A model generated the notes under the pieces. The model did not search any database. It was not told the origin of the DNA and was given only the letters and a program-made list of their open reading frames with translations. Of a stretch of DNA of 64,000 nt, positions 19,912 through 63,444 are shown piece by piece; the stretch's first letter is position 1, and every line of letters starts with the position of its first letter. The translations under genes and the position numbers were made by a program. Origin of the DNA: Mytilus galloprovincialis (taxonomy: Eukaryota; Mollusca; Bivalvia; Mytilida; Mytilidae); assembly GCF_965363235.1 (NCBI RefSeq), contig NC_134840.1:92268416-92332415 (forward strand), given 5' to 3'.

Positions 19912-20013
19912 GTAATGAACACAATTATAAGTTATTTTCGTGCTTAAAGCGGTCATTACCTTTACCTAGTACAGTTATAGGTGTCCTCTATAAGCTGCGC
20001 TAGATAGTGAATA

Positions 20014-30595: not shown

Positions 30596-33500
30596 CTGAA
30601 AAAGAAAACAAAACCCATACATATATATTATAAATATATACAGTTGTAGGTTTATAAATCAAAGCCAAACAATTTGGCAATATGAACATCATGATCAAAA
30701 TTGTTTTGTTTTTTTTGCTTGTAATATTTTACTTCGAAGAGATACAGGAAGGAAATTGATTAAACTCAAATTCTTTTTATGACATTCCAAATTCAAAAGG
30801 ATACCTTTATAAATCATTTTACTGTCTATGATGGGCAATACTAAAATATCCATGCCATGCACATTCACATGTAAATGTAGCTCATCAAATGATTATATCT
30901 GCAGACAAAAGAAATTTAACCTACCATGAATGGATTAGCACTAGGAGCAGGTTGACCCCAACCACCAAATCCACCTGGCTGTGCAGCTGGGAATCCTTGC
31001 TGTTGTCCAAATCCACCAGGATTTCCTCCCATTTTATTTGACTGTGTTGATGGTGTTGTCATTGTATTTCCATAGTTTGCAGGAACTGGTTGTCCCCCAA
31101 ATCCTGCAGCACTTGAAAACCCTCCATTTTGCATGTGAAACTGTCCAAAACCTTGCTGTTGTTGACCCCCTCCCCACCCAGCTTGTTGTCCACCAAAACC
31201 TGCAGCAGGTTGCGCCTGCTGTCCAAATCCAGCAGGTTGTCCCCCAAAACTAGCACTAACAGGTGTTTGGTTAAATCCTCCAGGAGCTGGTTGCCCATGC
31301 TGTCCAAAACCTGCAGATTGTTGTCCGAAACCAGCAGCTTGCTGTCCAAATCCTGCAGCTGAACTGACAGGCTGCCCAAACCCTGATGGCTGTCCAAATG
31401 CTGGCTGCTGAGCAGGTTGTCCAAATCCAGTCGGCTGTTGTTGCCCAAACCCTTGCATTTGATTAGTTACTTGTGTTTGCCCAAAACCTCCTGGTTGCCC
31501 TCCTCCAAATGGATTACTAACACCAGCTCCTCCTTGTGATGCACTAGATACAGCACCTCCAAAAGGATTTGGTGTTCCACCTATAGAAGAAACAAATTAA
31601 TTTATATTTAATAATGGACTTCAGATTGTTATTTCAAATTCAATCAAAATGTATTCTTTAACATAACTTAACCTGCAACTTGGCCCCCTCAAGTTATAGC
31701 GTGTTATGATTGTTATCATACTCTCTATTTTTTCTATAAGGATGTATATTTTAAACATTTTGCACTGTTTTACAAACCTTTTTCTTTTGCTCAAAAATTA
31801 TCTGCTTATTCTTAAAATTGATATTATTCATAAGTAAGCAAAAAGTAAATGAAACATATTTAATCTATTGCTGAAGTCTTGGATAATCAATTTATTGACC
31901 ACAGGGTCCTGGACCTTAAATTCACTAATCCTTAGGTCATTAAAATGGTTCTATCATGCCCATTAAACAAGGATTTGATTGATTGGTGTTCAACACTATT
32001 GTGCTATTTCGTTAAAGTTAGTTTTTTATTGGTGGAGGAAGCTGGAGTTCCAGGAGAGAACCACCAATCTTTGGTAGGAAAACATTGGGTTGGCAGAAAA
32101 AAACAAATGCACCAGGTATAATGTATATACAAATGTGTATGAATTGTTAATTAGATAACTTCAATCCCATCACCTTTGAATATATTTGTTTAATATAAAA
32201 TATAGTTACAAAATATGCACTAAGAAAAGGAATATTTCATCTTTTCATTCTGAAAATTCAATTATATACATTTATTTCCCGTGCCTGAGGGAGATATTTA
32301 TATTTGTTCACCAAAGAAAAATCATATTTCACAAGGGCATCGCTGGAGGGAAATATGACTTTTCAATGTGAACAAAAATTCCTATCTCATGAAGCCAAGG
32401 GAAATGAATGTTTTATTCCACTGCCTAAACTTTTTTTTACTTAGTTGTCTTCTTATCCATGTTGTTTTACAAATAAACACAACAAACACAATGATAATCA
32501 GTACCGATTTTAAAATTTATCAAAATCAACATGCAGTGGAATAATATTTAATATTTTCAAAAACACAAAATCCCCTTCTCAATGGTCTCAAATTTTCCTC
32601 TAGTTGGGGAGGTTGTGGGTTTAATCCATGAGACTAACCAAATCAAACCAAAAACTTGAAAATATGTATTTGATGCTTCTGTCATAAGCAAGTGGCATAA
32701 GAAGTAAGCACACTAACTGCTTGTCCCGGATTCAGACTAATAGTTGCAGGTAGGGTAACATGTATTTCTGCAGACTGCAAATTATTGTAACAAGAGTGCA
32801 CACGCTGAACTGTCTCGCCTTCTTTACTAATTATTGATATTATGTTGATAGTCCTAAGTATAAAACTTTATTAAAAACTGTCACATAAACTTAGCATTAA
32901 CCAAGATAACTAAACAAAGACCAATGAACCATGAAAATGAGGTCAAGGTCAGATGAACCATGCCAGGCAGACATGTACAGCTAACAATGCTTCCATACAA
33001 CAAATATAGTTGACCTATTACTTATAGTTTAAGAAAAATAGACCAAAACACAAAAACTTAACACTGAGCAATGAACGTGAAAATGAGGTCGAGGTCAAAT
33101 AAAACCTGCGGGACTGACATATAGATCATAAAATATTTCCATACACCAAATATAGTTGACCTATGGCATATAGTATTAGATAAAAAGACCAAAACTCAAA
33201 AACTTAACTTTGACCACTCAACCATGAAAATGAGCTTAAGGTCAGATGACATCTGCCCTCTAGACATGTACATCTTACAATCATTCCATACAACAAATAT
33301 AGTAGATCTATTATTGCATAAAGTATGAGAAAAACAGACCAAAACACAAAAACTTAACTATAACCACTGAACCATGAAAATGAGGTCAAGGTCAGATGAC
33401 ACCTGCCAGTTGGACATGTACACCTTACAGTCCTTCCATACACCGAATATACTAGACCTATTGCTTATAGTATCTGAGATATGGACTTGACCACCAAAAC

Positions 33501-36500
33501 TTAACCTTGTTCACTGATCCATGAAATGAGGTCGAGGTCAAGTGAAAACTGTCTGACGGGCATGAGGACCTTGCAAGGTACGCATATACCAAATATAATT
33601 ATCCTATTACTTATGATAAGAGAGAATTCAACATTACAAAAAATCTGAACTTTTTTTTCAAGTGGTCACTGAACCATGAAAATGAGGTCAAGGACATTTG
33701 ACATGTTACTGACGGAAACTTCGTAACATGAGGCATCTATATACAAAGTATGAAGCATCCAGGTCTTCCACCCTCTAAAATATAAAGCTTTTAAAAAGTT
33801 AGCTAACGCCGCCGCCGTAGCCGCCGTAGCCGCCGCCGCCGCCGGATCACTATCCCTATGTCGAGCTTTCTGCAACAAAAGTTGCAGGCTCGACAAAAAT
33901 CTGGCTCAACATTTCCTATTACAAAATAGCATTCTCAACTTTATAGTCATATAACATCAAAATGTTTTTATCTAAAATATAAATTTAACTTGCCACTGGT
34001 TGTTTAACAGCCATCCATCATAAAATATATAAATTCTATTTTAATCACTTTTATTGATTATTAGTAATCACATTTTTTGTAAATCACTTGCAAATAAAAA
34101 CAAAACATGCCTTTTTCATTCAAATGAAAAGCCATCATTACATCTGATTTCAATTAGTAAGCATTACTCAAGCTTCAATGTTAAACAAAATTAAAGAGAA
34201 GCAAACATATTGCATAACAAAGATGCAGAATAATTTGTTGATGAACATTACATCCTTCTTTATTTTCCTTTAATCACATATCATTGTTTTTAGTTCATAT
34301 TAAAGAAAGTCATAACTTTTTAACTTGCCTTTTTTGGGCGAAAATGGTGTTGAAATCATTTCAACTTTGGAACTTATTTGACCTGCGATATGATTTGACT
34401 AGAGGGCCACTTACTAGAGGGCCACTTATAAGTCTTTGCAGACAAAATATGTGTAAAATAGGTGTCTGGTGTATATTATCTTTGATTACTTTTACTCTTT
34501 TGAGCTCTTCTAATCCAAACTTCAAATTTTCATTTTTTTTAAATTTATAAATGTTCCAAATATTGAATGAAATCATTGGCCACCTACTGTAACTATACAT
34601 GTAAATTCAATTGGTCATTGCAAAACGAAATCTTTTTTAAGAATGTTAAAACCATGAAAAATTCATTTTAAACATATTTAGTTACTTGATCCAAATACTG
34701 GTATTGAAATCTTAGAAGGCAAATGCCATACTTGTGTTCCAACTAACTTTGAATAGTATGGAAGAGGCATCCTAATTGTATTTTAGCTACTGGCCCTTAC
34801 GCAGTGGGCAGCTCCATTATAAGAGCCACTAACTAAACTTTTGGTATCAACTTTCTTTCTCTAAAATAGTATTTGAATTTTGTTGTTCAACCATCCATAT
34901 ATTTTTCATCAATATAATCATACTATAACTATAGCATAATATAATAATACATGTAATAAAATAACAGGCCCTGAACTGAAAACTAAAAGAAGAATTTTAA
35001 AAACATATGCATAATGCCCAAATTTATCATGAAGACTTAAGGTGGTTCAGCTCAAATTACTTTTGATATTGATTTTATTGTAAAGTTGAACATAGTTGGT
35101 TTTGGATGACTTCCTTTGTAATAAAACTCCAATGATAATCTTCCAACCAAACAGTATTACTCTGTTTAAAAGTTTATTTACTCAACAGTATCAAAAGTGA
35201 GTTATAGCTGAATAACCTTGTGTTTTTTATTTACTCAACATCTCAAACTTTATTTTTAAATTATTAAAATTCCAAATTTCAAATAAAAAATGCATCTTTC
35301 ATGATAAATCTTATTTTTTAGGCTTCATAACAAGGCAATGCAAAAATTCATTCATGCACCAAAATGAATGTTTACTGTACCATAATCAGTGAAAAACGGA
35401 TTGCCTGGTTTTCCTACAGGTACATGATGGGCAAAAAACTGTCCTAGCAAAATAATCATATAAATACAATAATAATTTAAAAATGACACATTTTATGGAA
35501 AATATTAAATAATATTAAATATTTTCCCCTTTAATATCATTTATCCTGGTGATAAATGAATCATCATAAGTGCTTTTTTAAATTTAAATTTTCTTCATTA
35601 TTTTTTTTTTTTATATAAATTACTAGTTACATTTACCATTAGGATTGTTAATCGACAAAACAAAATGGGAGAACAATTTCCCCTACATAGACTTTTCCAA
35701 TTTTCCCTATATAAAATTTTCCAAAAGCATGAGAAAAAAAAAGATACAACCCTTAAACCTATCCAATATCTTTATAAAATTTCATGATAATCTATAAGTT
35801 ATTATTAATGGCCAAAAGGTTTTCAAGTTTCTTAGTTACTATTAATTAATATTGTGTGCATTTATTATTGCGATTTTGTCATTTTAGACTTAAATGAGAT
35901 TTTAATTTTTACGATTTTGAGAAAAATCCTGTTTAATTCATACACAATATTTCAAAAGGCGAGTTTAAATTATTGCGTTTACAACTCTGTCACATTTTTC
36001 GCAATAATAAAAAACTCGCATTACTTTCTGAATTTATAGTATCTTTCTGCCCACCTTAATTTATTTTTCCTATTCCATTAGTTTTAAAGTTGTATTTGTC
36101 AATTAATCAGTCTCAAATAAATATTCAACCATTTATTAGTAAAAGCACAAAGTTATTAACATAAACCAATCGTTATCCCCTTCCAATAGCGTGTGAATTT
36201 TTTAAAATGCATATATCTAATATTCTAATTTAATTTTCTTTTACCTGCGCCAGGAAAAGCATTTGTTGAACTTGATGTGTTAGTCGGTGACATCCAATCA
36301 ACTCCTTGATTAGTAGATGATGCCGTACTAGTGCTGTTCCAGCTAACTCCCTGACCACCACTACTGCTATTCCAATTAAGACTACCACCCCCAGCAGAAG
36401 TATTAGCTCCGCCTCCTCCCCAACTTATTTCTGAACTTGATCCTCCAGCCCAGTTGACATTTGAACTAACCGGTGCAGGTGCCGAGGACAAGGGTGAGGA

Positions 36501-39500
36501 ACTAAACAGATCTGATAAAGCCGAGTATTTATCACCACCAGAGGGTGCTGGAATGGATATAGCTTGTGCCGTTGATCCATTTGTCAGAGGTGCTGACCCT
36601 GAGGGAGTATTACCCATTGGTACTAAAGGATCTGTAATAGATAAAAGTGTGCTATAATAATGATAAATTCTACTACTGGGTGCCATAATTATCATACATC
36701 ATGTACATTTTGAAATCTCAAATATGGGAACCTGTAATACAGTGATTATTATTGATTGCTGTGTGTCATTTTTGATTTTGTTTATCGTTTTGTCTTAGAT
36801 CAAGCCCTTGATTTTCTGGTTTGAATGGTTTCACATTTTGTCATGTCAGGACCTTTTATTAGATGACTATATGGTATGGGATTTGCTTATTGTTATGAGA
36901 GACAACAGTGACCTATAGTTGCTTACATTCATATTTTTTTGCTCTGGTGGATAGAAGTCTCATTGGGGATCTTGTTTATTTTTAATGAGAGATTTAAAAT
37001 AATTAAACACAATATTTGTGGGGGCAAAGGGTTTGAGGACACTTATTTTAAAACCTAAGACTTCCTCAATTAGAAAATGTTCAATACTTTATAAATTTCT
37101 TTGAAAAAGTACAACGTCTTGTCCTTTAGGGGACCCTTGAGACCTTCTCCATTCCATTATATCTGAAAATCCCTAGATCTGACTTACTACTAGGAGGCGC
37201 CTGGAAACCTGGGAATGAAGATTGTACTGGTGGCTGTGATGGTGGTGCTCCAAATTGATTAAAACTAGCAAAGTCAGCAAATCCTCCTGAAAGATAAAAT
37301 TCAGATTTTTTTACCAGAACAATAAAATTAAACTTGTTTTTATTAATAGACATTTTTTAAGTCACTTCAACTTGTTGTTTAATGAATGATACATATAGAT
37401 AGGATACAACACTTTTTTAAATTTAAAATAAATTCAATCATTTTCTTTAATTCTGCTGTCACAGATTAATTAAACTTCAGTTAAATAGTCATAGATTAAA
37501 TAAAATATATTTTAATTTTAGACATTTCTGGGATATGTATATGCTTAAAATTTGAAATAAATATGAAAAGCAAGATTTTTGTAATTTCCATACAACTCCT
37601 TATTCACATAGACCATGAAATTCACACATAAAATTAAGCAATGAAAACCAACAAATTATTCTTGTCTAAATCTTTCACTAACCATGATCTCCTGCCGCTG
37701 AAGGCTGTGATGGAGTCGATGATGAAGACCCAAATGGATCTCCTCCTAAATCTCCTAATAAATCCATTGTAGCTGACCCTGAAGACTGTGAGGACTGACT
37801 TTGTTGTCCTGGGGACTGGAATGAAGCGTCTTTTGGTGGCTGTTGACCTAGAGTGATCTGTCCTGGTACTGATGCAGCCTGACTCTTTAATGTTATTTTT
37901 GGTGACTGAAAGAGAAACAAGATCAAAAAGCTAAATAACAGAAACTAAGATTTAAAAAATTTATTATTGGGCAATGTGTAAGATTAAATTTTATCTGATA
38001 TTTACTGCATTTATTATGTTTATGAATAACAATGGTGATCATTTGCAAAATTGTCTATATAATATTTAATGTTCTTTTTTTTTTTTTTTTGTGGTGGTGG
38101 TGGAGGGGGGTCTATTTTTCTATATCTGTTGAAACTGTAATAGTGATGGTTGTGTCTTAGTATTGTCACCCATGATTCATAAAGGAGAAGCTCTGGTAAG
38201 GGCCGATTTTGGCCTCAAATTTCAGATTCATCTAACGAAAGTTTTTGGACACTTTTTAAACACTTCAGTGTCTATTTCAATTGATTCAATTAGTTAATGT
38301 GAAAGATTTTAACTGATTAAGTCGTTAAAAACGCTCTGATTTTCAAGCTTAAATATGAAAAATCTATCATATATGCCAAAAAAACGTCACTTTTCAGATG
38401 GTTTTTGTCAAAAATGAAAATGGCCGCATCCGTGTTCATCCTCAACCTTTATATATGTTTTGTATTATCATCAAATACAATTTACATTTAAATATTATGA
38501 ATGAACACGAATGCGGCCACTTTCATTTTGACGGAAACTGTCTAAAAATTAACCAAAATGCTAAAATTTTGAAGATTTCAGTAATTTAGCATTACTTAAT
38601 GATGCTAGAACGTGATATTTGTGCATTGTATTGTCAAAAACAGCTCATATTTATGTAGCAGAAGCATTTTACTTTCCAAAATATAGCTAAAAGATTACAT
38701 TTTCACAATTTTCTAAAACTGCTATATTTTGGGGCCAAAAAGTGGTCTTACTGAACCTACTCCTTTCTGTTCAGTTTCTGTAAATTGCAAAAAGATTTTT
38801 TTATGATGTTTTAAAGATTTCTTCAGGGTAATTGGAGGTTGAGGTGGTCAAATTATCATTTTTGGATAAAGATTGTTGAGAGACAGCATTTAACTCTTTA
38901 AAAAACAATCACAACTGTGTCACTTATTCTAATGAGAACATTATTTTGTGATCATTGGCTCCAATCTGTTTAAAACTTTTGTGTTGACAAAAAATGGTGT
39001 CCATTATGAACTAATGGCAATAACTATGAGCCAGAATAGTCAACAGAAAAAGAAAAACAATTGTGAAAAGAAAACAAGTAATGATAACATTATTCACCCA
39101 AAAATTTAAGTAGTTACATAGTAAACATCAGAAGTGAACACTTGTTGTATGCATATAAACTAAGGGGTCAATTAAAGTGTACTGTTACAGAACAACAGAA
39201 CACTTACATTTACCCTATATGCACACAAAGTACATGTAACAATTACAAACACTGAGAAGTAAGGAAGTACTTACAAAGGAAATACAACACTATCACACAG
39301 GAAACCTAACATCAAGTGGTCTCTACACAAAATAATCCAATTATACAGAATGTTACAGGATAGTACTACCATCTAACACCTAGTATCTTAATCTCACATT
39401 ATCAACTGACAATTAGATTTAGGTGACCTGTGATGATTAAAACAATTATGTACAGTACTGGTATGTACATGTATACTGATCACCACAGTGCAATATGTAC

Positions 39501-42500
39501 ATGTAGATCATTATAATATTATTCATTAATTTTTATTGGAGTGGTCTTGATTTGAGGAGAAATTAAAAGAAGAGGAGGGCATGTAACCCATTCCTGCTTA
39601 TCTCAGTTTGTTAATCCCTAACTCCTTGAAAATGACTTGACAGAATTCAACAAGACGTGTACAGGTTAATCTTTAGAATATGAATTCGAGTTATGCAATA
39701 TTGCATCTGGTTTTTAATTTTGAATTTTGAATTTTGGGGTTTCCTCATCCTGTACCAAGTCTATTAGACTTTTTCATTTTTATATTATTTATAGATGGTA
39801 AGTATCCCACATCTACCTTACAAGACTGTATAAACAAATATGGCTTTAACTGATAATAAAAAATTTATAAGGGTTCCGCGGAACCCAGTGTCTCGCCTAC
39901 TTTTGCTGTTAATCACACACTCATCAAAAATGATGAAAAAAATCAATAAAATTATTCCTCTCGATACTATCTTTTGATTGTCAGAAGCTTCTGTCCAAGT
40001 TTGGTAAAAATCCAGGCTAGTTTAAGAATCTTAAAAATGTTTTAAATACTTTAACTGCAGACTGTATGTAATGTTAACTGGAAGAAAAACTAAGTCCATT
40101 TATAAGTAAAATACGGGAAAAATGGGAATTTTATTTTTACAAAATTTACATCTGGAGACTATCTTCTGATCATAAACAAGCTTCTGGCCAAGTTTCTTAC
40201 AATTCCAGGATAGTTTAAGAAAGTTATTAAAATTTTAAAAACTTTAACCACAGAGTGAATGTAATGTTTCCTGGCAGAAAAACTAAGTCCATTTATAAGT
40301 AAAATACGGAAAAAATGGAATTTTATTTTTACAAAATTTACTTCTGGATACTATCTCCTGATCATAAACAAGCTTCTGGCCAAGTTTTGTACATTTCCAG
40401 GATAGTTTAAGAAAGTTATTAAAATTTTAAAAACTTTAACTACAGAGTGAATGTAATGTTTCCTGGCAGAAAAAACTAAGTCCATTTATAAGTAAAATAC
40501 GGAAAAAATGGAATTTTATTTTTACAAAATTTACTTCTGGATACTATCTTCTGATCATAAACAAGCTTCTGTCAAAGTTTCGTACAATTCAAGGATAGTT
40601 TAAGAAAGTTATTAAAATCTCAAAAACTTTAACCACAGAGTGAATATTTGTGGACGCCGCCGACGACGACGCCGACGACGACGGAATGTAGGATCGCTAT
40701 GTCTCGCTTTTTCGACTAAAGTCGAAGGCTCGACAAAAATGACATCATATCATTATATCATCCACATTGACAGGCAAGATCTAATACTTACAATACTTAG
40801 AACCTAAAAATAACTCAGTGGTAAACACCCAAAGATACAGTTAATGTACTACAATTCTGGGCTTTTTGTCTCAGAAATACTTACAGCCATTTTTTTGGAA
40901 AACAAACTAAAAGATAAATCAAAACAAGGGAAATATTGACCAAAATTGGCAATCTCTGAAATTGTGTGATTGATTTCTAATAATAAAATAATAGGACAGT
41001 AATTGATATTTCAAATATGGGATTGAATAGTTGGACTGTGGTAAGTGGAGCTTAAATGAAACTCAGTCATAACGAATAATATTTTCTTTCATGGTTTAAA
41101 AAAGAATTTTGTCATTAGGAAACAGTTTACAAGTGAATTTACATTATATTTGGATTCTGGGAGAATGGTGAGGCTTTGAGGAATGCTGTTTGTGTAAGAA
41201 AAAAACTAAGATTAAAGGAAGTGGTTTATATGGATCTGCTGCTGTAAGCATGCTGTTCAGTGTAATAAATACTCATTATCATGTCCAAGTATGTCAATAA
41301 TTTCATTCATAAACATTCAATTATCAAGGAAGTTATGATTTTTATCAATGGAGTTTTATTTACATTAGATAACACAATGTTGACAATATTGTGGTAAATA
41401 ATCATCCTATGAATATTCAACAGGATAAACAAACAAAGGATAGTAGCAAATAACTTATTTATATGAATCAAATATAATTCTTGATCAATTTAATTTTTCA
41501 TTGAAAAATTTACTGTTTTTTACTGTATAAACCACACATGAATTCACCAATATTAGTTCATTTTATCTGTAGTTAGTTGCTGACATAAATATGGCACAGA
41601 TTCTAGTGACTCATATTCTGACACTGATGTATCTCTACCCGAGTTCTACGCGTCGCCAGTAAAACTGCATTTGCGACCGTATATCTGAGCAAATTTACTT
41701 TTAACACCTGAATTTGTGTATGCTTTTAATTTTATTAAATTGATCTGAACCTATTGATTTGATTTTGATTTTTGAATTTTTATGCCACTTTTGGGCTTTT
41801 TTGTGGCGGCCAGTTTTTGTTAGTGGAGGAAGCCTGAGGAAACCACCAACCTGTAATAGGGAACTGACAATCCTAGTCAATTAAGAATGAAGTCCAGTGC
41901 ACCCACACAAGCAGGGTTCAAATCCACGACCTCAGTGTTGACTGGCTATAGTAGAAATTACTTAGACCACTTGGACACTGAGGCCCTTGAATCTGAATTG
42001 ATCACTTGCTAGAAAATTGGTTGGACAAATCCATGTTTTCTGTAGTAATGTGTTTAGTGCAAAGGGATTGAAGTGTTTGACATATATGTAAGGTTAAATT
42101 ATAAAGGACTTATGATGGAGATTTTCTACCACAAAAGTGTGTCCAGATTTTCTTGAAACAGGTCAAATCTGTTTGTAGCTAATTTGATGATACCATCCTG
42201 AATAACTTCTTTTTTGCAGTTGTTTTTGATATCATATTGAAATAACTTATATATACACACTAAAAATCTAATCAGATTTGACCTGTTAAAGAAAAGATAT
42301 GTACATATACGCATAAACATGGATGGATTGCTACGGTATAACATAAATGTAAGACTCAAAAATATGCTTTAGTGTCTGAAATAGCAAACATGAGTATGTT
42401 TCCACAAATGTGCCTGATCAAGCTAAGGTACACACCATTATGAATTTTGTTGACAGATCACACATTCAGTCATGTTGGAAATCCCTTTAACTTTAAAATA

Positions 42501-49560: not shown

Positions 49561-49583
49561 TTTGAAGTATGACAATTTTTTAA

Positions 49584-49617
49584 ACCGGAAGTTACTTCCG
49601 AACTAAATTACGGAAGG
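49584..49617. promoter_or_regulatory. Opposed ETS-type motifs just upstream of the AGFG start
   Basis: CCGGAAGTTACTTCCG (49,585-49,600) contains two opposed GGAAGT cores, and ACGGAAGGA follows within about a dozen bases. It lies 25-55 bases upstream of the ATG. ETS/GABP sites at such positions are usual in TATA-less housekeeping promoters, so the transcription start is probably very near. Confidence 0.5.
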
Positions 49618-52198
49618 AGCGATAACTCCCACATCTTTTTGTGGTTACTGTATGCGGTTATGTATAAAGTATTTGTTGGAACGTATTTTTACTTGATTAA
49701 TAGAACATATATCTTACTCTTATGTATACTTTTTTAGTATAGATAGTCCCTAATTTTGCATAACAAAAGTGTTAACTTTGCATCACTCTCAGAGCTTGTA
49801 AGCTTTCCCGATTACACCATATTGTTAAAAATCTATGTTGAAATATTTTAACCGTATGTAGAACTTGTCAGAATTTCCTTTATAATATGATGCCTTTGCA
49901 AACTCTAAAGATTTGCATAATAACCGAAGGTAAAACAACTTGACACAGTCTTTGATAAATATATATATTTTTAAAATTTATTATTAGATCTAAAAGAAGA
50001 CAATGTCTTCTTGTAAGACATAAATTGGTTTCATTTAACACCAAGCTAAGCAAAAAAAAAATAATAAAAAAATACATGACTGAAAAGTTAAATCACAAAA
50101 ATTCTACTCCGAGGAAAATTTAAAAACGGAAAGTTCCTAATCAAATGGCAAAATCAAAAGCTTAAACACATCAAACGAATTGACAACAACTGTCATATTC
50201 CTTACTTGGGTACATGGGTGATTCAGGAAATTTTACTGTGACATTTCTTCATTAAATGTGACAAATACCGCAGTAAAAGAAAATACATTTCTACTTTTAT
50301 ATCTAGTTAAGTGAAACATTTGAGTCAGTTAAAAGAGGAGGAACAGTTCTTGCAAGTAAATAATTCATCAGCGATGATTTTGTTTATCTAATTTTAACTC
50401 AATTTAACTAAACTACACTATTTCACTTGTATTTTTCAATTCAAAATATTTTATTGTTCAAATATCAAATGTACATTTAAACAAAGAGATTGGACAAAAG
50501 GCAGTGCCTATACAAATCCTTTCCCATACAAGATGGATTGAATAACATGCAATCCATGATAGTATATAATTTTCTGATAAGTTAATAGATCATACGTTGT
50601 TTAATCTTCGGATTTCAAATGTTTGGCTTTGAGCGTTCCTGATGAAGGTAAATCCAGAAAAGCGCTTCGGACGCAATAAATTATAAAACGTGTTGTTTTC
50701 CATATTTTGTTGCAGTGAGTCAGGGGAGGCAATCCCCCCACTTCTTGAAGTATTTTATTGTGTATACGTATATAAATAACTATGTTAACAAAGTCAAAGC
50801 AAGACCTACTGAAGGTGGTGTAGAATTTTATACCACATTAATAAATGTTGGTTAGGAATCAAGTAGATCATTAAGTGAATTTTTTTACTCGAATTCACAA
50901 ACTCACTGCAACAAAGTTGTTCTATTTATATGAATAACAAGAATTGATTGGCCCTTTTTTGCAATACATAAGTAATTTAGTGTACCATCTTATTACATGA
51001 CTATTAATTTCTTGATTTTTGAAAATATAATTACTAATACAAAAAATAAAATAAAATATATATAAATTTCACTTGTATTATGACTGAAAAAAAAATATGC
51101 AGAGAATCACAATTTACCAAGGACGTACGAGCCGCGGTATAACTGTATTAATGTATATACCATGTACGGGAATATGTCAGACCCCTTCTAGGATTTGCAT
51201 ATTTGGAAAAGTCAGATATGTCTATCCAAGAGTATTACAGTTTTCATGGATAAAAAACAGACACACCTACATACCAAATCATTTAATATTTATAAACAAA
51301 GCAGACTAAATTACAAATACCGGAATAATAAGCTCACATAAATTTTTCTTCTCACTATAAATTAACCACAAGATAATTAATAATAATTTTAAAACATTTA
51401 TTTGAAATGTTTTTAAATCAGGCATTCTGGCGCAATATCCGCAAGGGTAGTCGCCATTAAACCGGCTCCATTTAGTAGTAGTAGTAATGTTAAAGTCATG
51501 TTTTATCTAAACACACTAAGGTTGTTTGATTTGCAACTTACTATTTTCCCTGTTTCGGCACAAATTTAAATATGAAGTCATTAAATTCGATCTCAAAATG
51601 GTCAGCATTCGAAGTGGAATAAATATAGAGAAAGTCGTATTTAATTCATTCCATTGAGAACAAAACTAATTGAATTCAGATTTTTTAGTTATAGGATATT
51701 CTGAAATATATTATTTAATGGCAGAAATTGTAAATAAAAATAATTATCTAATTCGACTTTGTAAGTTTTATTTTCTTCACTATTTCCGTGTGCATGACTA
51801 TACCCTACAATACACAATTTATGTTGACTGAGAAATAGTCCCAGATTTCTTATTCCTTTTTTAGTTTGTTGTACACATACCCAGTTAAACATTCTCCCAA
51901 AAAACATTTTGACTGAACACTTGGTAAAGTTAAAAAAAATTGTGATTAATTATAATTAACAATCTAATCACATGACATAAATGTAATTTGGCATGCTGAT
52001 TACCCCAAGCCGACATTTAGAGTTCAGTATGCCATCTTCTACAAGTTAAGTTTGTCTCTGTATGCCACTTCGACCTGACATATCAAAATTCAAAATGTCA
52101 AAAGTACAGATGACCTTTGTATATATATTTCACAAACTTTTATATATTTCAAAAATATTCCTATTCCGAAAGACGAACACACACGCTTTAATATCAAG
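49618..52198. other. Intergenic region between divergent AGFG and BTB genes
   Basis: There is no supportable gene. A repeat copy lies at 50,115-50,218. TATATATA occurs at about 52,118, some 80 bases upstream of the BTB start, but AT richness makes it weak evidence for a promoter. Confidence 0.45.
50115..50218 (-). repeat. Dispersed repeat, ATATGACAGTTG family (copy 3, minus)
   Basis: AAAACGGAAAGTTCCTAATC, then AAATGGCAAAATCAAAAGCT and GACAACAACTGTCATATTCC, is the reverse complement of 2,731-2,870. Confidence 0.8.
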
Positions 52199-53071
52199 AT
52201 GGCTTTATTTACTAGTACTCCTAAATCTAAACTTAGAGAAAAAGTCTTGTTGCTGAATCTGGACGAGAGCGACAACGAGAGTTCATCTGGTTATGATTCT
52301 CCTGTATATGTCTCCGATGAAAGCAAAGACGACAAGAAAACAGTTACAGCTAAAATGATTGAAGCTGATTCATCAGACGATTCAGATTTCTCATCCGATG
52401 AAGCAGACGATGATTCCTCAGACGACGACAGCGACGATTTAGATGATATTGATGACATACAGTCAACCAATGATTCGATGAAAGTTACCAAGATACAGGC
52501 TGTGATTGATAATATTCGCTATATTCTGTCCATGCCAGACTTATGTGATGTCATGTTCCTTGTTGGAGAACAGAGAATTCCAGTATATGGATTGAAGTCG
52601 ATACTTGGAATAAGGAGCCGCGTTTTCTGTGACATGTTTGTAAAGCAGTCGCGGGAAGACATGAATAGCAAGAAAAAGTTAAAGAAATCCAAAGATGAGA
52701 AACAAACCAAAAGTAGCATGAAGACCACCATAATAATTGATAGTTATGACATCGAAGTGTTCCGTTCATTTTTAATGTTTTTGCACTGTGGGTCCGTTAC
52801 CATGGATGCTTCGACTGTTGTTGGACTTCTCTGTTGTGCTGCTGAATTTGACATTGCTGATTTGAGAAAGGCATGCTGGGAATTTGTAGATACATGTCTG
52901 TCATCTGTTAGTACCGAAATTGTTATAAAAGAAACATTCCGTTATGATGACCATAGTGCTGCACTGAAACTCCGACAAACTATCCTTGGTCAACAGAAAA
53001 AGACAAAACTCCAAGACAAACAAAGTTCTCAGATGCGCCTGTCTCCAATTGGAAGAGAAACTGAAGTTTAG
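52199..53071 (+). CDS. BTB/POZ domain protein with acidic N-terminus
   Basis: A single uninterrupted exon encodes 290 residues starting MALFTSTPKSKLREKVLLL. Residues 56-88 are almost all Ser/Asp/Glu. Residues 112-235 form a BTB/POZ fold: DLCDVMFLVGEQRIPVYGLK (the usual CDVTFLVG-x-HK start), ILGIRSRVFCDMF, a Lys-rich insert at 156-175, then IEVFRSFLMFLHCGSVTM and LLCCAAEFDIADLRKACWEF, which begins a BACK-like helix. BTB domains mediate dimerisation or cullin-3/adaptor contacts; the specific partner cannot be inferred. The VGEQRxPVYGxKxILGxRSRVF style recalls the serine-enriched (gprs-like) BTB group, which is a guess from memory. The ATG is the first in frame. ATTAAA at about 53,214 could be the poly-A signal. 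Confidence 0.88.
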   Translation: MALFTSTPKSKLREKVLLLNLDESDNESSSGYDSPVYVSDESKDDKKTVTAKMIEADSSDDSDFSSDEADDDSSDDDSDDLDDIDDIQSTNDSMKVTKIQAVIDNIRYILSMPDLCDVMFLVGEQRIPVYGLKSILGIRSRVFCDMFVKQSREDMNSKKKLKKSKDEKQTKSSMKTTIIIDSYDIEVFRSFLMFLHCGSVTMDASTVVGLLCCAAEFDIADLRKACWEFVDTCLSSVSTEIVIKETFRYDDHSAALKLRQTILGQQKKTKLQDKQSSQMRLSPIGRETEV

Positions 53072-53213
53072 GGGAATTTTGTTTTGAAACTGTGTAGTGC
53101 TATGCTTTGAAATACATACATACATTTTTAACTTATTTAAAACTAACTGTTTTGAATATCTATTGGTATTCACAAAGTGCAACTAGCCTGTCTATTTTAT
53201 TTTATAGTGCTTT

Positions 53214-53219
53214 ATTAAA
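53214..53219 (+). terminator. Possible ATTAAA poly-A signal of the BTB gene
   Basis: ATTAAA lies about 145 bases after the stop codon in TGCTTTATTAAACAATATAA. It is the first recognisable signal variant downstream. Confidence 0.35.
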
Positions 53220-53534
53220 CAATATAAAACACATATTTTTGTTCATTATTTTTAGATTAGCTGTTTAGGTGGTATTGACGTGTAAAAATGGTATGCTCTA
53301 CCAAAATGCAGTATACTAGGTTATTTTCAAAAGTACGTATTTGTTTATACCAAATATGGATCGAAACAAAACAAACTAAACTACAGCATATAAATACCAA
53401 GAAAAAAACCCCCATGCATAATTAAAACATGTACTTATACATATATACTTAGTATTTCATTTGTAATTACGAGTGTAATAAAAAGTATAGGTCATCAAGC
53501 TTCCAAGCCACAGGTTGTGTGCAAAATTCTCATT

Positions 53535-54229
53535 TTCCTCCCACTTGCGACAAAAGTAGCAGTATGCGAGACACAGGTAGAACTATCCGGAGGTGGCGGC
53601 GTAACCGATTTGTATAAATTAAATGCTTTATATTTCATAGGGTAGAAGACCTGGATACATAAACCCTTGTATAAAGAGATACCTTATATTAGTTTCGGTC
53701 GGGTATATGTCCATTGTCCTTGATCTCATTTTCATGACTCGGCGACTGCTTAGAAAAATAGTGTGTATTTTTGTCGTGTGCATTTTCACATATTATGAGT
53801 AGTAGGACAACTAATATTTCGTATATTGTAGGTTCCTTGCAACGCCTACATGAATGTCAGACAGCGTTAACTTGACCTCGACCTCTTTTTATGGATCAAT
53901 GATCAAGGTAACAGTTACGTGATTGTGTCGGTTTCGCAGATATTATCTGGCATTGCCCTCATTTTCATGGTTCATTAGTCAATGATAAGATTTTGTTATT
54001 TTTTTGGTCAATCAGATACCATAAGCAAGAGGTCAACAACATATGGTGAATGATTGTAAGGTGTAAATGTCTTTCTGGCATGATTCATCTGACCATGACC
54101 TCGTTATCAAAGAAAACCTATGTTAGGTATATGTAATTCATTGTTGTAATGAAACCTTCATGTTACATACTTTCAACATAAATTCAATGATAAGTTAAAC
54201 AGGCGAGACATCACCATGTGTACTCTTGT
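53535..54229 (-). mobile_element. Tandem-repeat-cored element 3 (HINE/pearl-like, diverged)
   Basis: Read on the minus strand it begins ACAAGAGTACACATGGTGAT then TGTCTCGCC (54,229-54,202), as does element 1. It has several diverged GACCTCATTTTCATGGTTCA-type units, a GCCGCCACC simple tract and TGTCTCGC at 53,573-53,566, then a decayed hairpin. It has the same plan as element 1 in opposite orientation. Confidence 0.7.
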
Positions 54230-54511
54230 GAAATACGACGAAAGAAAGCTTTAAGGATAGTAGAAGACTTCTTATATCATTAAAGAATATTAAATGCTAC
54301 ATAAGAATATACGAAAAGAAGGCTTTAATGGAATGCTTTCAAAAAAATAAATCAAAAGGTACAATACATGACTAAAAAGATACATCACGAAAAGACAAAT
54401 GACAGTGCTCATAGCACTACAAAGAAACCCGTATTAGGTGCAGATCCAGGATTATGAAAAAGGGTGGAGGGGGGCTTTGCAAGCCAATGTTTGGATTGAT
54501 ATCTGTAATAA

Positions 54512-55571
54512 ACAGCTGCGCCACGAGCGCATGATACGCCTGTCGTCTTGTGTGTGTTAAGTTATATGCAATAACCATAAATAATTTATGAGATACGGCA
54601 CGACATATAACTAAGAAGTGTGTAAAGTTTTAAGCAATTATCATAAATTGTTTTTGAGATACGGCACGACATGTGAACTCCCCTTTAAAAAAAACCCACC
54701 CCAATAACTCTAAAATTAAATTTTGAATCATCACCAAAAAGTATACAGATCTTAAGATTAATATAACTAAGAAGTGTGTAAAAATTTAAGCAACAATCAT
54801 AAATCTTTTTTTTGAGATACAATGCGACATGTGAAGGCCCCCCCCTTTTTTTTTTTTACCAAAAACTCAATTACTTAAAATAAAATTTTGAATCATCACC
54901 AAAAAGATTACAGATCTTAAGATTAATATAACTAAGAAATGTATAAAGTTTTTAGCAATAATCATAAATCGTTTAGGAAATACGGCGCAACATGTGAAAA
55001 CCCCCTTTGTTTTTTTTAACAAAAACTAAACTCTAAAATGAAATTTTGAATCATCACCAAAAAGTATACAGATCTTAAGATTAATATATCTAAGAAGTGT
55101 ATAAAGTTTTAAGCAATTATCATAAATCGTTTTCGAGATACGGCATGATATGTGAAACCCACCTTTTTTCTTTAAAAAAACTCAATAACTCTAAAATGAA
55201 ATTTGAATCATCACCAAAAAGTATACAGATCTTTAGATTCATATACCTAAGAAGTGTGTAAAGTTTTAAGCAATACTCATAAACCATTTTTGAGATACGA
55301 CGCGACATGTGAAAAAAGCACCCCTCTGTTTTAGTTACCAAGTCCCGTAACTCAAAAAGTTATAATCTTATTTTCACCAAAAAGTATACAGATTTTTTGA
55401 CCATCATAAGAAACAACTATATTAAGTTTCATGAAATTTGGATATGTTTTTTTTTTCTCAAGTTACGCCTGTTATGGTGCAACATGTTTACCGTGACGGA
55501 CAGGCAGGCGGACGCTGGACATTTGTATACCCGTAAAAAGTCCCGTCGAAATTTTGATGGGCGTATAAAAA
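54512..55571 (+). mobile_element. Tandem-repeat-cored element 5 (HINE/pearl-like)
   Basis: The 5' end CAGCTGCGCCACGAGCGC is followed by ATACGCC (54,534-54,540). The core has five units of roughly 160 bases (AACTAAGAAGTGTGTAAAGT, TTTTGAGATACGGCACGACA, AATCATCACCAAAAAGTATA). After GACGGACAGGCAGGCGGACG comes the 3' hairpin, TATACCCG ... GGGCGTATA, then AAAAAG. GGCGTAT is the complement of the 5' ATACGCC. Confidence 0.8.
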
Positions 55572-55712
55572 GTGTATGTATTGAGCATATGATAGGTTAT
55601 ATCCATAAGGAGACCAAGAACACAAATCAGGCAGTTTGAACTCAGTTGGGCCAGAATGTTAAGCAGTTCTGTATCCATTAGTAGATTTTGCTAATAACGT
55701 TAATTGTTATAT

Positions 55713-55863
55713 AGACAATAACTGTTTAGTGTCTTTAAATATCAGCTGTATTTGTACGAGGCTAGGAAACAAGGTGTATGCGAGCTTTTAGCGAGCTACT
55801 ACACCTGTTTCGAGCCGAGTACAAATACAGCTGATATTTAAAGACACTAAACAGTTATTGTCT
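55713..55863. repeat. Palindrome with 45-bp perfect arms
   Basis: 55,713-55,757 (AGACAATAACTGTTTAGTGT ... ATTTGTAC) is exactly complementary to 55,819-55,863. Inner imperfect arms (GAGGCTAGGAAACAAGGTGTA with TACACCTGTTTCGAGCC) extend the stem. No coding frame crosses it. It is probably a foldback MITE. Confidence 0.92.
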
Positions 55864-57147
55864 TTATCCTGCAATTAATTCTGTTTATTGTTTGTGTTTT
55901 GAAAGACACAAAAACTAACATATTTAATTAATTAATTTAATTAATATTTAATTTGTAATCCCTTGAGGCCCGCGTAGTAATATCAAAATCACACATTACG
56001 CTGAAGACGGGTTCGCAAAAAAAGAATCTCGAATGGTCAACAATAATACATCGCTCAAGGTGTATAATTATCTATTTTAACATAACAACTAATTTCAACA
56101 GTAAAAACAAATAACAAAACATTGTCAAATTTGAAACAGAAGTGTACGAATTGTCCTACGCTTCAGACTTGAAATTCACTAAACATGCATGCTGAAATTG
56201 ACATGGTTGATTTTGTAACACAATCATACACATTCAAGTTTTGAAATCGACAAGTGTCATCGTCATTGGAATGCAACTGGAATACACATTCTGAGGTCAC
56301 ACAGGTTCAAACAATACTCAGTCCGGCAGTGGGCGGAGCTTTATTTAAAGCGATATCTGTATAGTATACAGATACAGCATAGCGATATCTGTAGGGCTGT
56401 ATCTGTATAGTAGGACACCCAATTGCAGGATAAATGCTATTCTTTCTTGATTGCTCAAACTTCCTTTAATCTGGGACAGTTTTGTAACAGTTCAACATAA
56501 GAACAAACTATCAAAATCAGTTGAAAAAGACTAAACACATAATAAAACGTCACATTAGATTGATACAAACGGAAATAATAATATATAACAAAAACACTGG
56601 GTTGACGTGGACGGGAACTTGTACATCCCAACAACAAAAAGACACTTAGTACAGATCTGTGAGTATTCATAGTTACTGACAGCTAGTTCAAAGCAACTAA
56701 TAAAAAAATCATGTATCTAAGACAAAGTCCTTATCAGTTTGAAATACTCATACTCGTATAAATGCCTGTACGAAGTCAGAAATATGACAGTTGTCATCCA
56801 TTCGTTAGATGCGTTTGAGCTTTTGAATTTGCCATTTGATTATGGACTTTCCTTTTTGAATTTTCGTCGGAGTTCAGTATTTTTGTGATTTTACTTTTTA
56901 AATAAAATTGTGATGTATATCTTCTGCTCTTATAAGTTATTGCGCATCTTTTCTTTTGTTCCGCTTTACTTCAACCTTGGAAAGGGAGTTTTTCTTTATA
57001 AATTGAATATCTTTCAATATTCGGAATGACTTATATTATTCTCGAGTAAAAAAAGTCACAACACACACACTAAATTTAATGGAATAGAATTTATTTGAAT
57101 CTGATTTTTTTCAAAGTCCTACATTTTATTCAAAATTCTTCAGAGAT
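55864..57147. other. Intergenic, with small inverted motifs
   Basis: TTTATCCTGCAATTA (about 55,863) and CCAATTGCAGGATAAA (about 56,418) form a distant inverted pair. TATCTGTATAGTATACAGAT near 56,350 is almost palindromic. A dispersed repeat is listed separately at 56,761. No gene is seen. Confidence 0.45.
56761..56900 (+). repeat. Dispersed repeat, ATATGACAGTTG family (copy 4)
   Basis: AATGCCTGTACGAAGTCAGA to GGAGTTCAGTATTTTTGTG is the best preserved copy and matches 2,731-2,870. Confidence 0.8.
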
Positions 57148-57330
57148 CTACTTATGGAAATCCTTCCTATATGTTTCCATATCTTTTACGGAGGTAACAC
57201 GGATAAGACCTCTTTTACCAACTCTAGTGAAATCAGCAAAAAAATCTCCAATGACGTCATTACCAACTGTATCAATCTTCATTCCATTGACTACTGTAAT
57301 TCTGTCCTCTTTGGTTAAGTCCTTGTCGAG
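57148..57330 (-). CDS. SDR last exon
   Basis: The 60-residue exon with stop encodes LDKDLTKEDRITVVNGMKID, then GDFFADFTRVGKRGLIRV and METYRKDFHK. AATAAA on the minus strand at 57,125-57,130 starts about 18 bases after the stop and is a plausible but very close poly-A signal; another lies near 57,090. Confidence 0.85.
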   Translation of the reverse strand, partial: LDKDLTKEDRITVVNGMKIDTVGNDVIGDFFADFTRVGKRGLIRVTSVKDMETYRKDFHK

Positions 57331-60300
57331 CTGAAAAAAATAAGTTAAAGTAGTTTATTTTCGTAATTTCTTAGACCAAATCCTTTTAACGGCTCCCTAA
57401 TCAGATGGTAGTTGCAAAATAAGCGTAAATAACCCATTCGCGAAAACTAATGCATTATTAGAAGAAGTTGCCTTCGTTAATTTGGATCCATTTTTGTTTT
57501 GACTGAAAATTCAAATGTCCGAATTATTAATCTCAAGAATAAATGCATTTGAAAACAAGAATGTGTCCTCAGTACACGAATGCCCCACTCGCACTATCAT
57601 TTTCCATGTTCAGTGGACCGTGAAATTTGGGTAAAAACTCTAATTTGGCATTAAAATTAGAAAGATCATATCATAGGGAACATGTGTACTAAGTTTGAAG
57701 TCGATTGGACTTCAACTTCATCAAAAACTACCTTGACCAAAAACTTTAACATGAAGCGGGACAGACGGACGGACGAACGAACGGACGGACGGACGGACGA
57801 ACGAACGGACGGACGGACGGACGAACGAACGGACGAACGAACGGACGGACGGACGGACGGACGAACGAACGGACGAACGGACGCACAGACCAGAAAACAT
57901 AATGCCCCTCTACTATCGTAGGTGGGGCATAAAAAGATATATTGGGTTCGTGTTTAAAATGTTGAGGCAGTCATGCCAATTGTACATTCCTTCGAAACAG
58001 GTGCAACATATTGCCATCAGCCGAATAAAGTTCTGCAATTTTTTTTTAAAGGCCAGTCAGCTTCAGCTACATCATACTGGCCTTCTAAATCTTACACTGA
58101 TATCGTATAGTATATGAACTCCACAATGATTTGTAATTTATTTGCTTGTCAAGACACTTATGATAAATAAAAGAAAAGTAATTTGATTTGATTCTCATTT
58201 TTGCCCCTACCATTTTACAAAAATGTTCCCGCGGGCTCATTGGTTTTTAACCATTTTCACCTTTTCTCATAAAGTAAAAAATGTGATACAGTTAATAATA
58301 CCTTAGGTTTAATAAATATTGCAATGCGAAGTTCATTTACTGCTACGTTCGAATCTTTATATTGCGCCTGTGCAGAATTTGATATTCCCATGAGTGCACA
58401 TGCACCGATAGCTAGCAGTGAGATGTTAGGTGAGAATACGCCTTCACAGGACAGTCCGTTTACAAATGTGTAAGTCGTATCTGAAAAGAAAAAAAACATG
58501 AGTGACCTACAGTTGTTTATTTCTGTGTCTTTTGTTCTCTTGTGGAGAGTTTTCTCATTGGCAATCATACCACATCTCCAATAGGGTTCAATGGAATCTT
58601 CTGTCTTGCTCCTGATTGCTGATGTCATGATGCTGATTGTGTGCCATATCTAGCTAATGTCGGTGTAAATTGTATAATTTTGGCATGTTTACCTGAGAAA
58701 CAAAGTTCATTCAAATGCATGAAAATGAATAAAAAAAAATAAAAGCGTTAAATTTTGGTTACTAGAAATGAAGTTCTGTCCAAGTTTATAAAATGTTGGT
58801 ATTAAGGGTTGACAGTAAATAAATGATAAACAACGATGTCAGATATTTAAATAGCAATTCACAAATATCATTTTCTGTATGAAGATAACCAAACGGTAGC
58901 ATCGATGCTAAATAAGTTTACGTGATACCCTTTATGGATTATTTTCACAATCACCTAAAGTTGAACCACCATAATTACTAAAAAAAGAAAAATCACCGTT
59001 ATGGATTTATTTTACAAGAAACCATGTTAATAAAGAGAAGTGTCAATAAAGAGTCAGTTAATACAACCAAACTTGAGGGGATGAGATATTGCGTTGCAAT
59101 CCTACGATCATCAAACAAGCTCATCCTCCCGTTACGATAATAGAACAGTAATACCTTTTTCCTTTGCTAGAACAGGTAGAAATGTCTTGCAACAAATGAA
59201 ATGGGATTTAGCTCTAATGTTCATCTGGTTATCGAACTCTTCCACACTTTGTTCTGTCAATGGACCTTCCTGAAAATTAAATTTCATGCAAAATTAATGA
59301 TAATCTGATAATTAGAATTTCAGAAGTGAAACAAAATCTGACTGAGCAGGTTTAAACCTAGTACAGTGGACCTTCCTGAAAATTCTATTTCATGAAAAAA
59401 CTACAGTAATGATATTTATACAGTTATTGCTACATCAAACACACATTTCAAACGACGGTATGTATAACTTGTCCTTTTCTTCTTATGTTTTCTGTCGGTA
59501 TTTAAAAAACAGACTAAATATTTGTTTTTATTGTGAAATATATTTCTGATGATAATTATTAATTTCATAGCTGAAACAAAATCTGAAACATGTTTAATCC
59601 TAGGATAGTGGACATAACTCTTCGTTCAATCAACGATTTTTACAAGTTCACTCTAAAGTTTTTAAGTAACACAGATTGAAAACATTCATGTAGCTGTTTT
59701 TTTAAAGGATTAACTGATTTTTAGAGTTATCTAATTTCCTACTAGACAAAATAATAAAAATACTCTCATTCATTTATTGTGACGTTGAGAACAAGTAGCA
59801 TATGGCGAAACAGAGTAATCTTGGTAACTACAGCTGATTGCATTGCCTGTGTAGATAAAGGTAATAACTTGCTAGCTGAACCGTGAAGTAATTGTTATTT
59901 TTTATTTTCATTTTGTTATGTTGTGTCAAATACTATAAATATGTAGTTTTATGGCAATAAAGATTTAATTTGAATTTAATTATTAGGTTTAATAGGTAAA
60001 CTACCCTTCTATATGAGTAGATAAGTCTGACAGATACACACTATATTTGTAAGACTAGGGTACTTCGAGAGGAGGGTAGTATACCTTACCTTATAATGAC
60101 TACATGGTTCAACTAACAAGCAAGCTTACCAAAGATATTACCTTTACCTACACACTCAATGCAATCGGCTGTAATGTATTTTTTATAGATTGATGTTCGA
60201 TGTGAGTCAAGGCTCCGTGTTGAAGACCGTACTTTTACCTATAATCGTTTACTTTTACACATTGTGAATTGGATGGAAAGTTGTCTCAATGGCACTCATA

Positions 60301-61799: not shown

Positions 61800-63156
61800 A
61801 AATTTTAAACATGAATGACGTCGCTAAAAAGTCGTTAAAAGTATTTGTAAAACCTGCCAAGGTCAGAAAGTGGGTTGGTCTTGAAGTCAGTTAACAGCTC
61901 TCATGTCATGTGTTTGTAGTTTAAAAAAAGTAACATCAAAGTTGACGCATTCAATCAAAATGTTTTATGCATTCCCTCTGGGCGACAGTGGTTCTGACCT
62001 GTTCACACTTTCTTAAGAGCAACAACTCGGCGACAAAAGCTTTGCCTTTAATCTATTCATCATTAAAAAATAAGGGGGGGGATTATTTGGATTAAATTGC
62101 TATCTAATAAATTTCTTTACCTAAACATGTACTATTTTCATAAAGAGTATTGTAAAATAAGTGTTATTTTATTTTCCTAAGATGCGGCAATATTCAAAAC
62201 GACCTCTATGACAAAAATAAAACGTTACGAAAATATATGTTGAAATGAATATGTAGAGCCCTCGGAATTTCTATACATTTTTTAAATTACGAAAAGATAA
62301 AAATTGAAAATCGAAAAATCGAAAATCAACCTAATTCGTCAACCCTAATCATGAATGTAAAACGTATGATTTCAAGGATAAACCAATATTTGAAGAAATT
62401 ATTATACTCTCTCATTCTGGTTGTGACAAGTTTGATAAATTTTGATGAACCACGATAAAATTTGTCTCGTGTTATTCCCCGCCATAACAAATGTTTTAAT
62501 GATTTTTAATTTGACAATTTACAAAAATACAACTTCAGAGTTTTAAATTTGACCTTTATCTCGAGTGGATGAATATCGAACATAATGAGATTGTGTGGCA
62601 GAATCTGATGTACTAAGTATATAGTTTTACAAGTTAAACTTTCAGTACTATGCGTGTTTGGTTTTGAGAATGATGGCCAAAGACATTATTGCTCAACCAA
62701 TAATTCATATTTCATATACACGGGATACCAGTTAAGATTTATATAAAATTGAGAATGGAAATTGGGAATGTGTCAAAGAGACAACAACCCGCCAAAGAGT
62801 AGAAAACAACCGAAGGCTATCAGTGGGTCTTAAATACGACCAGAAAATCCCGCACCGGAACCGTTTATTACAAACCATAGGCGTAACCAAAAGAGAGGGT
62901 CTCGGGGCCCGGGCCACCCCTTTAGTGGGAACATATGGTAGATTATATACGGAATCGCTGACGCATGATTAGTGCAGAACCCCCTTTAGGTCGATAAAGG
63001 CAAATGAAATGTAATAAAAAAAAAAACCAAAACACCATATAACTTAGTATAACTGTATCGGATTAAATTTGATTTTCTTGAAATTCCTCCAATATGTGTC
63101 AATTTTTTTTTTTTACTTTCAAGTATACATTAATTAATTACATATGCATATAATTT
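61800..63156. other. SDR upstream region, no exon identified
   Basis: I looked for a first SDR exon ending in phase 1 before a GT donor. The candidate at about 62,120 (ATGTTTAG|GTAAAG on the minus strand) is in the wrong phase. From recall, GAATGGAAATTGGGAATGTG then CAAAGAGACAACAACCCGCC at 62,751-62,795 belongs to another dispersed mussel repeat. Confidence 0.45.
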
Positions 63157-63444
63157 GATATCATGATAGTACATTATGCATGTTTTCAAGTTTAGAAGAG
63201 AGTATAGATGATATCAGTTCACCAGTGGGGGATCAAAATCAAAAGGGGTGTGGCGGTGGGGGGAAAGTATAGTATACAGAAATGACCATTGCAGGTCTTT
63301 GATATCATGATAGTACATTATGCATGTTTTCAAGTTTAGAAGAGAGTATAGATGATATCAGTTCACCAGTGGGGGATCAAATTCAAAAGGGGTGTGGCGG
63401 GTGGTGGGAAAGTATAGTATACAGAAATGACCATTGCAGGTCCA
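63157..63444. repeat. 144-bp tandem duplication
   Basis: GATATCATGATAGTACATTA starts both units (63,157 and 63,301). They are nearly identical apart from single bases in the GTGTGGCGGTGGGG stretch. Confidence 0.92.

Follow-up and report, generated by a model that had tools for sequence, protein, structure and literature searches.

A 64,000-nucleotide stretch of the genome of the mussel Mytilus galloprovincialis (contig NC_134840.1, positions 92,268,416 to 92,332,415 of assembly GCF_965363235.1; hereafter the window) carries five repeats, elements 1 to 5, whose component parts are listed in Table 1 and whose families are designated E1 to E5. All five lie where an initial annotation of the window had placed them, and each has the short motif, body, simple repeat and hairpin-like end that this annotation described. 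On the evidence of their ends, target sites and genome-wide abundance, we consider these elements, with a probability of about 0.9, to be non-autonomous Helentron-type rolling-circle transposons (HINEs) of at least four families, reversed in orientation with respect to the direction first assigned to them.

Families and bodies

The bodies measure 0.4-1.1 kb and consist mainly of tandem or simple repeats. Tandem arrays were called with Tandem Repeats Finder, whose periods for elements 1, 2 and 4 (146, 193 and 158) agree with those initially estimated; no array was reported for element 3, to which one had also been ascribed. The bodies had been described as unrelated, which proved incorrect for elements 1 and 3: they align over stretches of at least 100 bases at 69-76% identity, and their last 63 bases agree at 79%. 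E1 and E2 have their first 45 bases in common at 80%, and beyond these two pairs no elements match one another in pairwise comparison (E 1e-3). Element 3 has distant relatives only, the best of them mostly at 72-77% with one short match at 80% and some genome matches covering parts of the body alone, and is therefore an old copy. The five elements represent at least four high-copy families, with E1 and E3 forming one lineage. Three types of subterminal inverted repeat (subTIR) are found among them: TGTCGAGCC/GGCGAGACA in E1, E2 and E3, ATACGCC in E4 and ATGCCCC in E5.

Table 1. Components of the five elements, with positions in the window and the strand on which each reads in canonical HINE order; the family assignments are putative
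Feature	Position	Strand	Basis
Element 1, HINE family E1 (canonical 5' end 33899)	32790..33899	-	39/40 scored copies span query
E1 3' terminus: 3' subTIR GGCGAGACA (32811-32819), end GTGCACTCTTGT	32790..32819	-	copies
E1 tandem array, period about 146	32908..33540	-	Tandem Repeats Finder
E1 GC simple repeat (GCCGCCGTA)n	33811..33844	-	Tandem Repeats Finder
E1 5' terminus: T5 run, subTIR TGTCGAGCC and complementary arm, hairpin	33859..33899	-	fold
Element 2, HINE family E2, without flanking T-runs (these reach about 39858 and 40739)	39863..40736	-	copies
E2 3' subTIR GGCGAGACA (39889-39897), perfect 16-bp palindrome GGGTTCCGCGGAACCC (39871-39886)	39871..39897	-	sequence
E2 tandem array, period 193	39959..40645	-	Tandem Repeats Finder
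E2 GC simple repeat (GACGACGCC-like)	40653..40683	-	Tandem Repeats Finder
E2 5' terminus: T5 run, TGTCGAGCC, complementary arm GCGAGACA	40700..40739	-	fold z -1.0
Element 3, old decayed member of E1 superfamily	53530..54229	+	69-76% to E1
E3 3' subTIR GGCGAGACA and terminus GTGTACTCTTGT	54202..54229	+	alignment ends, fold
Element 4, HINE family E4, flanking A/T runs included	54506..55572	-	copies 76-83%
E4 3' subTIR GGCGTAT (54534-54540), palindrome (54518-54530)	54518..54540	-	fold z -2.1
E4 tandem array, period 158	54605..55314	-	Tandem Repeats Finder
E4 5' terminus: T-run, subTIR ATACGCC and complementary arm, hairpin decayed here	55542..55570	-	copies
Element 5, HINE family E5, no tandem body besides microsatellite	57553..57936	-	copies 85-99%
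E5 3' subTIR GGGGCAT (57580-57586), imperfect palindrome GTGTCCTCAGTACAC (57563-57577)	57563..57586	-	sequence
E5 microsatellite (GGAC/GAAC)n, GTCC/GTTC on canonical strand	57759..57890	-	Tandem Repeats Finder
E5 5' terminus: T5 run, subTIR ATGCCCC and complementary arm GGGGCAT, hairpin	57902..57935	-	fold

Fixed ends and abundance in the genome

Copies were sought in the genome to which the window belongs, an assembly of 1.38 Gb whose 331 contigs include the chromosome-sized C1-C14. Those scored or fetched are the best-matching or most complete, decayed copies being under-represented. Among the best 40 scored of 5,094 first-look candidates for element 1, 39 copies (the window's included) cover the query from 1 to 1110/1111 at 96-100% identity, and among the best 40 scored of 4,118 candidates for element 2, 38 reach both ends at 96-100%. 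Both ends were present in all ten fetched copies of E4, one of which has lost part of the hairpin, and in all 20 fetched copies of E5, which were picked for matches reaching both ends. Terminal sequences were written out at eight E1 and 30 E2 loci, the window's own copies among them. The E1 3' end proved identical in place in the eight fetched copies and in the related E3 copies, while 20 of 23 E3-relative alignment ends beyond window position 54150, some from overlapping or near-identical loci, fall at 54228-54229. An abrupt switch from shared to unrelated sequence, which the initial annotation had proposed as a check of its reading, was thus seen at the same place in copies of E1, E2, E4 and E5 and in the relatives of E3. 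Because genome copies start and stop at these features, the common plan stands above chance, and the elements are dispersed, presumably non-coding repeats with fixed ends.

The hairpin ends are themselves abundant. The E5 pattern TTTTTATGCCCC-N10-30-GGGGCAT has 6,794 matches in the genome (3,368 and 3,426 by strand) and its reversed control none. The pattern TTTTTGTCGAGCC-N6-30-AGC, of the TGTCGAGCC type, also has 6,794 matches (2,916 and 3,878 by strand) with none for its reversed control, the equality of the two sums being a coincidence; 12 of the first 100 matches listed for this type double-count a place, so that about 6,000 places are estimated by extrapolation. From the first 100 places listed, 17 distinct variants of 34-35 bases were assembled for analysis of covariation, leaving out the 12 double-counted rows and five rows of other lengths. 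Two of the seven pairs of the inner 5' hairpin are changed on both sides, 84.0% of cells are paired (5 of 500 shuffles as high), and covariation is 0.176 against 0.101 (3 of 500 shuffles as high); the number of pairs with a change on both sides (188/500) and of further pair types (247/500) was not significant. Covariation therefore lends weak support to the inner stem of the TGTCGAGCC-type 5' hairpin.

Insertion into T-runs

The joined flanks of 58 copies were compared with genome DNA in search of empty sites. Matches of copy L028, with an ambiguous alignment, and of L030, whose host is an E2-like array, were excluded, leaving usable paralogous sites for the E1 copies L002 and L004, the E2 copy L035 and the E5 copy L080. 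The empty sites agree with the joined flanks at 84-94% identity and consist, for the E1, E2 and E5 copies, of uninterrupted T-runs: ATTTTTAATT; CCCTTTTTTTTACGG; and, on the other strand, CCAAAAACAG. L002 and L004 lie at the same site in the same host repeat and may represent one event. E1 and E5 show five T at the empty site, against five ahead of the element and two behind it at the filled site, so that the element has either brought two T with it or caused their duplication. At the matching empty sites of E2 there are either eight T or five T with a G, which gives no clean T count. No target duplication beyond the two unassignable T was found in the empty sites of the three families.

Exactly five T precede the element in seven of eight E1 copies (all that were readable, L004 being the eighth), in 22 of 30 E2 copies, the other eight having shorter runs, and in 13 of 20 E5 copies, the other seven having longer ones. 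Both the number of T after the element and the base before the T-run vary between copies. In copies of three families, insertion is into pre-existing T-runs without loss of target, in agreement with the insertion among T residues that had been put forward as a mark of Helentron-type movement.

Terminal structures and polarity

The initial annotation described a hairpin at what it took to be the 3' end of each element. By DNA folding energy, expressed as z against 200 shuffles of the window copies, this hairpin is strong in element 1 (-15.5 kcal/mol, z -7.2) and element 5 (-9.9, z -5.2) and weak in element 2 (z -1.0), while in the window copies of elements 3 and 4 it does not rise above shuffles. 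Nine of ten other E4 copies retain both arms bar point changes. The complementary inverted repeat and the microsatellite of this end module are present in E1, E2 and E5 in the window and in other copies of E4, and are decayed in E3.

A second palindrome, which had been missed, lies at the opposite end (39871-39886, GGGTTCCGCGGAACCC; 54518-54530; 57563-57577), clear in E2 and E4 and weak in E1, E3 and E5. The E2 palindrome is identical at 25 of 30 loci, the window copy included; it has one base changed at four and two changes that leave it palindromic at one. The 3' subTIR and palindrome are retained, bar point changes, in all ten E4 copies and in the 20 fetched E5 copies.

The published HINE plan used for orientation is drawn from two studies (PMC7492417 and PMC4067079); for Cg_HINE of the Pacific oyster, the former gives the order subTIR, complementary repeat, microsatellite (often of GTCC type), tandem array, 3' subTIR and palindrome. 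When reversed, the mussel elements read T-run, subTIR and complementary repeat, microsatellite, array (where present), 3' subTIR, palindrome and an end next to T, as in E5, whose canonical order is TTTTT-ATGCCCC-loop-GGGGCAT-(GTCC)n-body-GGGGCAT-palindrome-CTTGTT. What had been annotated as the 3' hairpin and its simple repeat is the HINE 5' module, and the supposed 5' motif is the 3' subTIR, with the second, partly weak palindrome beyond it. The original polarity was rejected because the order of parts fits the published plan only in reverse, and because the one autonomous end that resembles these termini (family B, below) has its gene on that side. The canonical strand is minus for elements 1, 2, 4 and 5 and plus for element 3.

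Comparison with published systems

In plan, Cg_HINE (PMC7492417) resembles the mussel elements in the order of parts on the corrected strand, its satellite-like array, its 3' subTIR and palindrome (the latter partly weak in the mussel), the GTCC-type microsatellite in the 5' module (seen here in E5), insertion into T-rich sites without target duplication, and dense dispersal. It differs in its subTIRs, which are 11-12 bp as against 7-9 bp here, imperfect in E1 and E2; unlike Cg_HINE, E5 lacks an array, and E1 and E2 have GC-rich repeats of trinucleotide type. The HINE-Mo/DINE-1 elements (PMC4067079) likewise insert into T-runs with a varying count of terminal T, have a subTIR close to either end and a 3' palindrome, the latter partly weak in the mussel, and depend on Helentrons with Rep, PIF1 helicase and endonuclease, as the mussel elements are presumed to; their 3' subTIR lies about 38-60 nt from the end, whereas here it lies 19-28 nt from it. 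The same source describes mite HINEs as deletion derivatives, 84-99.9% identical to their own Helentron, and no such parent was found here.

Pearl-type elements, among them MgE of M. galloprovincialis and DTC84 of Donax, are named in PMC7492417 and resemble the present elements in that short modules flank central repeats of about 160 bp in bivalve genomes. The likeness to MgE, which also comes from a mussel, is one of description, and one of the E families may be MgE itself. Among the titles listed for the bivalve and Mytilus literature on Helentrons, Helitrons and MgE, none is dedicated to mussel HINE families; any of these families may already have been described.

Helentron genes as candidate helpers

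With the Pfam Helitron_like_N domain as query, 138 matches were obtained in the genome, many of them lying within open frames of 2,000-3,163 codons. Both loci sampled, A and B, encode Helitron_like_N, PIF1 helicase, DUF6570 and an endonuclease match, with an OTU domain in A, and both proteins carry the GSPH and FYR residues by which Helentrons are told from Helitrons (PMC4067079). The Helentron proteins encoded at L089 (C13:2953300-2960300) and L091 (C2:32804500-32811500) are about 2,600-3,000 codons long; they have DUF6570 and an N-terminal domain of OTU-like or tegument-peptidase-like type. Long open frames of this kind are numerous in the genome, whose Helentrons have therefore probably been active recently.

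The end of family B could be placed by its copies: 34 of 36 alignments extending past query position 2970 stop at 2993-2998, 25 of them at 2994, the other two being the query's own place and one that stops at 2981. This end falls downstream of the gene, directly after GGTGAGCGACA-CA-GGGTCCTTGGACCC-TCTAGTT, in which GGTGAGCGACA is subTIR-like and GGGTCCTTGGACCC a palindrome, and scores 31 against the E2 end GGCGAGACA-CT-GGGTTCCGCGGAACCC, a value reached by one of 2,000 mononucleotide shuffles and by none of 12,789 plus-strand 55-mers taken from the window in steps of 5. The resemblance supports the corrected polarity and suggests that family B is kin to E2, not identical with it. For a HINE and a Helentron to be placed in one subfamily, their last 60 bp should agree at 80% or more; the B end is similar to that of E2 alone, in plan and partly in sequence.

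Two candidate partners were rejected. For family B as the exact partner of E2, the predicted 5' end TTTTTGTCGCTCACC has two matches in the genome against one for the control, which is chance. A further 1 kb upstream of B (L113) is common in full to three B copies, 5.0-5.2 kb from the Rep domain; as it is complete in these three only, the 5' end of B probably lies further out. In family A (locus on C13) hairpins follow the open frame, but several copies align on through the region; bases given as N within the retrieved sequence were disregarded.

Positions 1-843 of L113 are a dispersed repeat in the upstream part of Helentron copy B, matches ending at about 843 in most of the best 40 scored places, and its start resembles, by eye, the repeat in which the E1 copies L002 and L004 are inserted.

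Proposed mechanism and alternative explanations

Transposition of these elements would depend on a Helentron protein that recognizes the subTIRs. Its Rep, helicase and endonuclease activities would nick at the 5' T-run, and one strand would be peeled off from the subTIR/hairpin end until unwinding stopped at the 3' palindrome; the single strand could then be joined into a nicked T-run elsewhere.

Several observations weigh against assigning the elements to this class. The empty sites come from copies of E1, E2 and E5, with none for E3 or E4. The 3' palindromes of E1, E2, E3 and E5 do not fold above shuffles (z 0.9, -0.9, 0.5 and 0.0), the perfect 16-mer of E2 among them, and the subTIRs are short, with two mismatches in E1 and E2 (agreement in 7 of 9 bases) and decay in E3, where published subTIRs measure 11-15 bp. 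Two of the many Rep loci, A and B, were read, and the endonuclease match of B lies below the Pfam cut-off. The helper elements that the initial annotation proposed to look for are present in so far as long open Helentron genes exist, and the different or permissive helper proteins that it suggested may be among their products; in the sampled families A and B no autonomous element with both of these ends was found. The upstream sequence covered did not extend to the true 5' end of B, and the end of A beyond its open frame lies further out, since several copies align past the hairpins. Finally, E2 alone stands out in the comparison with the B end and is one of five comparisons, shuffles scoring as high in 19, 98, 1,629 and 132 of 2,000 for E1, E3, E4 and E5.

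Among other origins, deletion products of a cut-and-paste DNA transposon, resembling miniature inverted-repeat transposable elements and having the shared end motif as part of their terminal inverted repeats, would account for a short inverted motif near both ends of short, non-coding, high-copy repeats. We hold this to be improbable: the motif is set in from the 3' end by 19-28 nt, the two ends differ apart from it, and the empty sites reveal no duplication beyond two ambiguous T. That the elements are nothing but satellite cores, spread by recombination and lacking the ends of a mobile element, draws on the arrays called in three of them (element 3 being related to one) and on matches restricted to parts of the body, and is next to impossible given fixed ends outside the arrays, precise empty sites, and element 5, which follows the same plan without an array and has thousands of hairpin ends.

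The A-runs that end the elements in the original orientation might be taken for the RNA-derived tails of retroposons similar to short interspersed elements, a very improbable origin given that the A-run pre-exists in the empty target, that there is no target duplication, and that the hairpin adjoining the A-run carries the subterminal motif. Derivation from canonical Helitrons shares the rolling-circle plan and the absence of target duplication. Helitrons in the strict sense, as described in PMC4067079, begin with 5'-TC, end with CTRR-3' and insert between A and T, and the same source gives T-rich targets and a variable terminal T number for HINE-Mo; the mussel elements lack both Helitron termini and lie in T-runs, and the two sampled Rep proteins have Helentron signatures, leaving this derivation highly unlikely. 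The initial proposal of a HINE or pearl-type, non-autonomous Helentron nature is backed by the fixed ends, the T-run empty sites and the hairpin-end counts.

The end modules of the elements could be independently exchangeable, either because one permissive Helentron enzyme moves several combinations or through swapping during rolling-circle copying. The idea, which we regard as rather doubtful, stems from E1 and E2, which have the subTIR and 5' hairpin in common and different 3' termini, and from E1/E3 and E5, which differ in subTIRs yet have a short TCTTGT 3' terminus in common. That terminus is absent from E2 and E4, and a match of six bases carries little weight.

Base-level ends, polarity and empty sites are now available for very abundant mussel repeats, which otherwise agree with the oyster descriptions. 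The E families can be annotated as rolling-circle elements and illustrate the scattering of short satellite arrays, and, with many long open Helentron genes in one genome, source enzymes could be matched to their hitchhikers.

Other features of the window

Positions 11648-25380 are taken up by two direct tandem copies (11648-18512 and 18512-25380) of about 6.87 kb that are 99.6% identical; this duplication is either very recent or an assembly artefact, and arrays of the GACAGGTTGACAAGTG type lie within it at 14646 and 21511. Beside element 4, at 55721-55855, ACTGTTTAGTGTCTTTAAATATCAGCTGTATTTGTAC is followed after about 60 bases by its exact reverse complement, forming a foldback that appears to be an inverted-repeat element of another kind. 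A 144-base unit stands twice in tandem, at about 98% identity, at 63154-63442.

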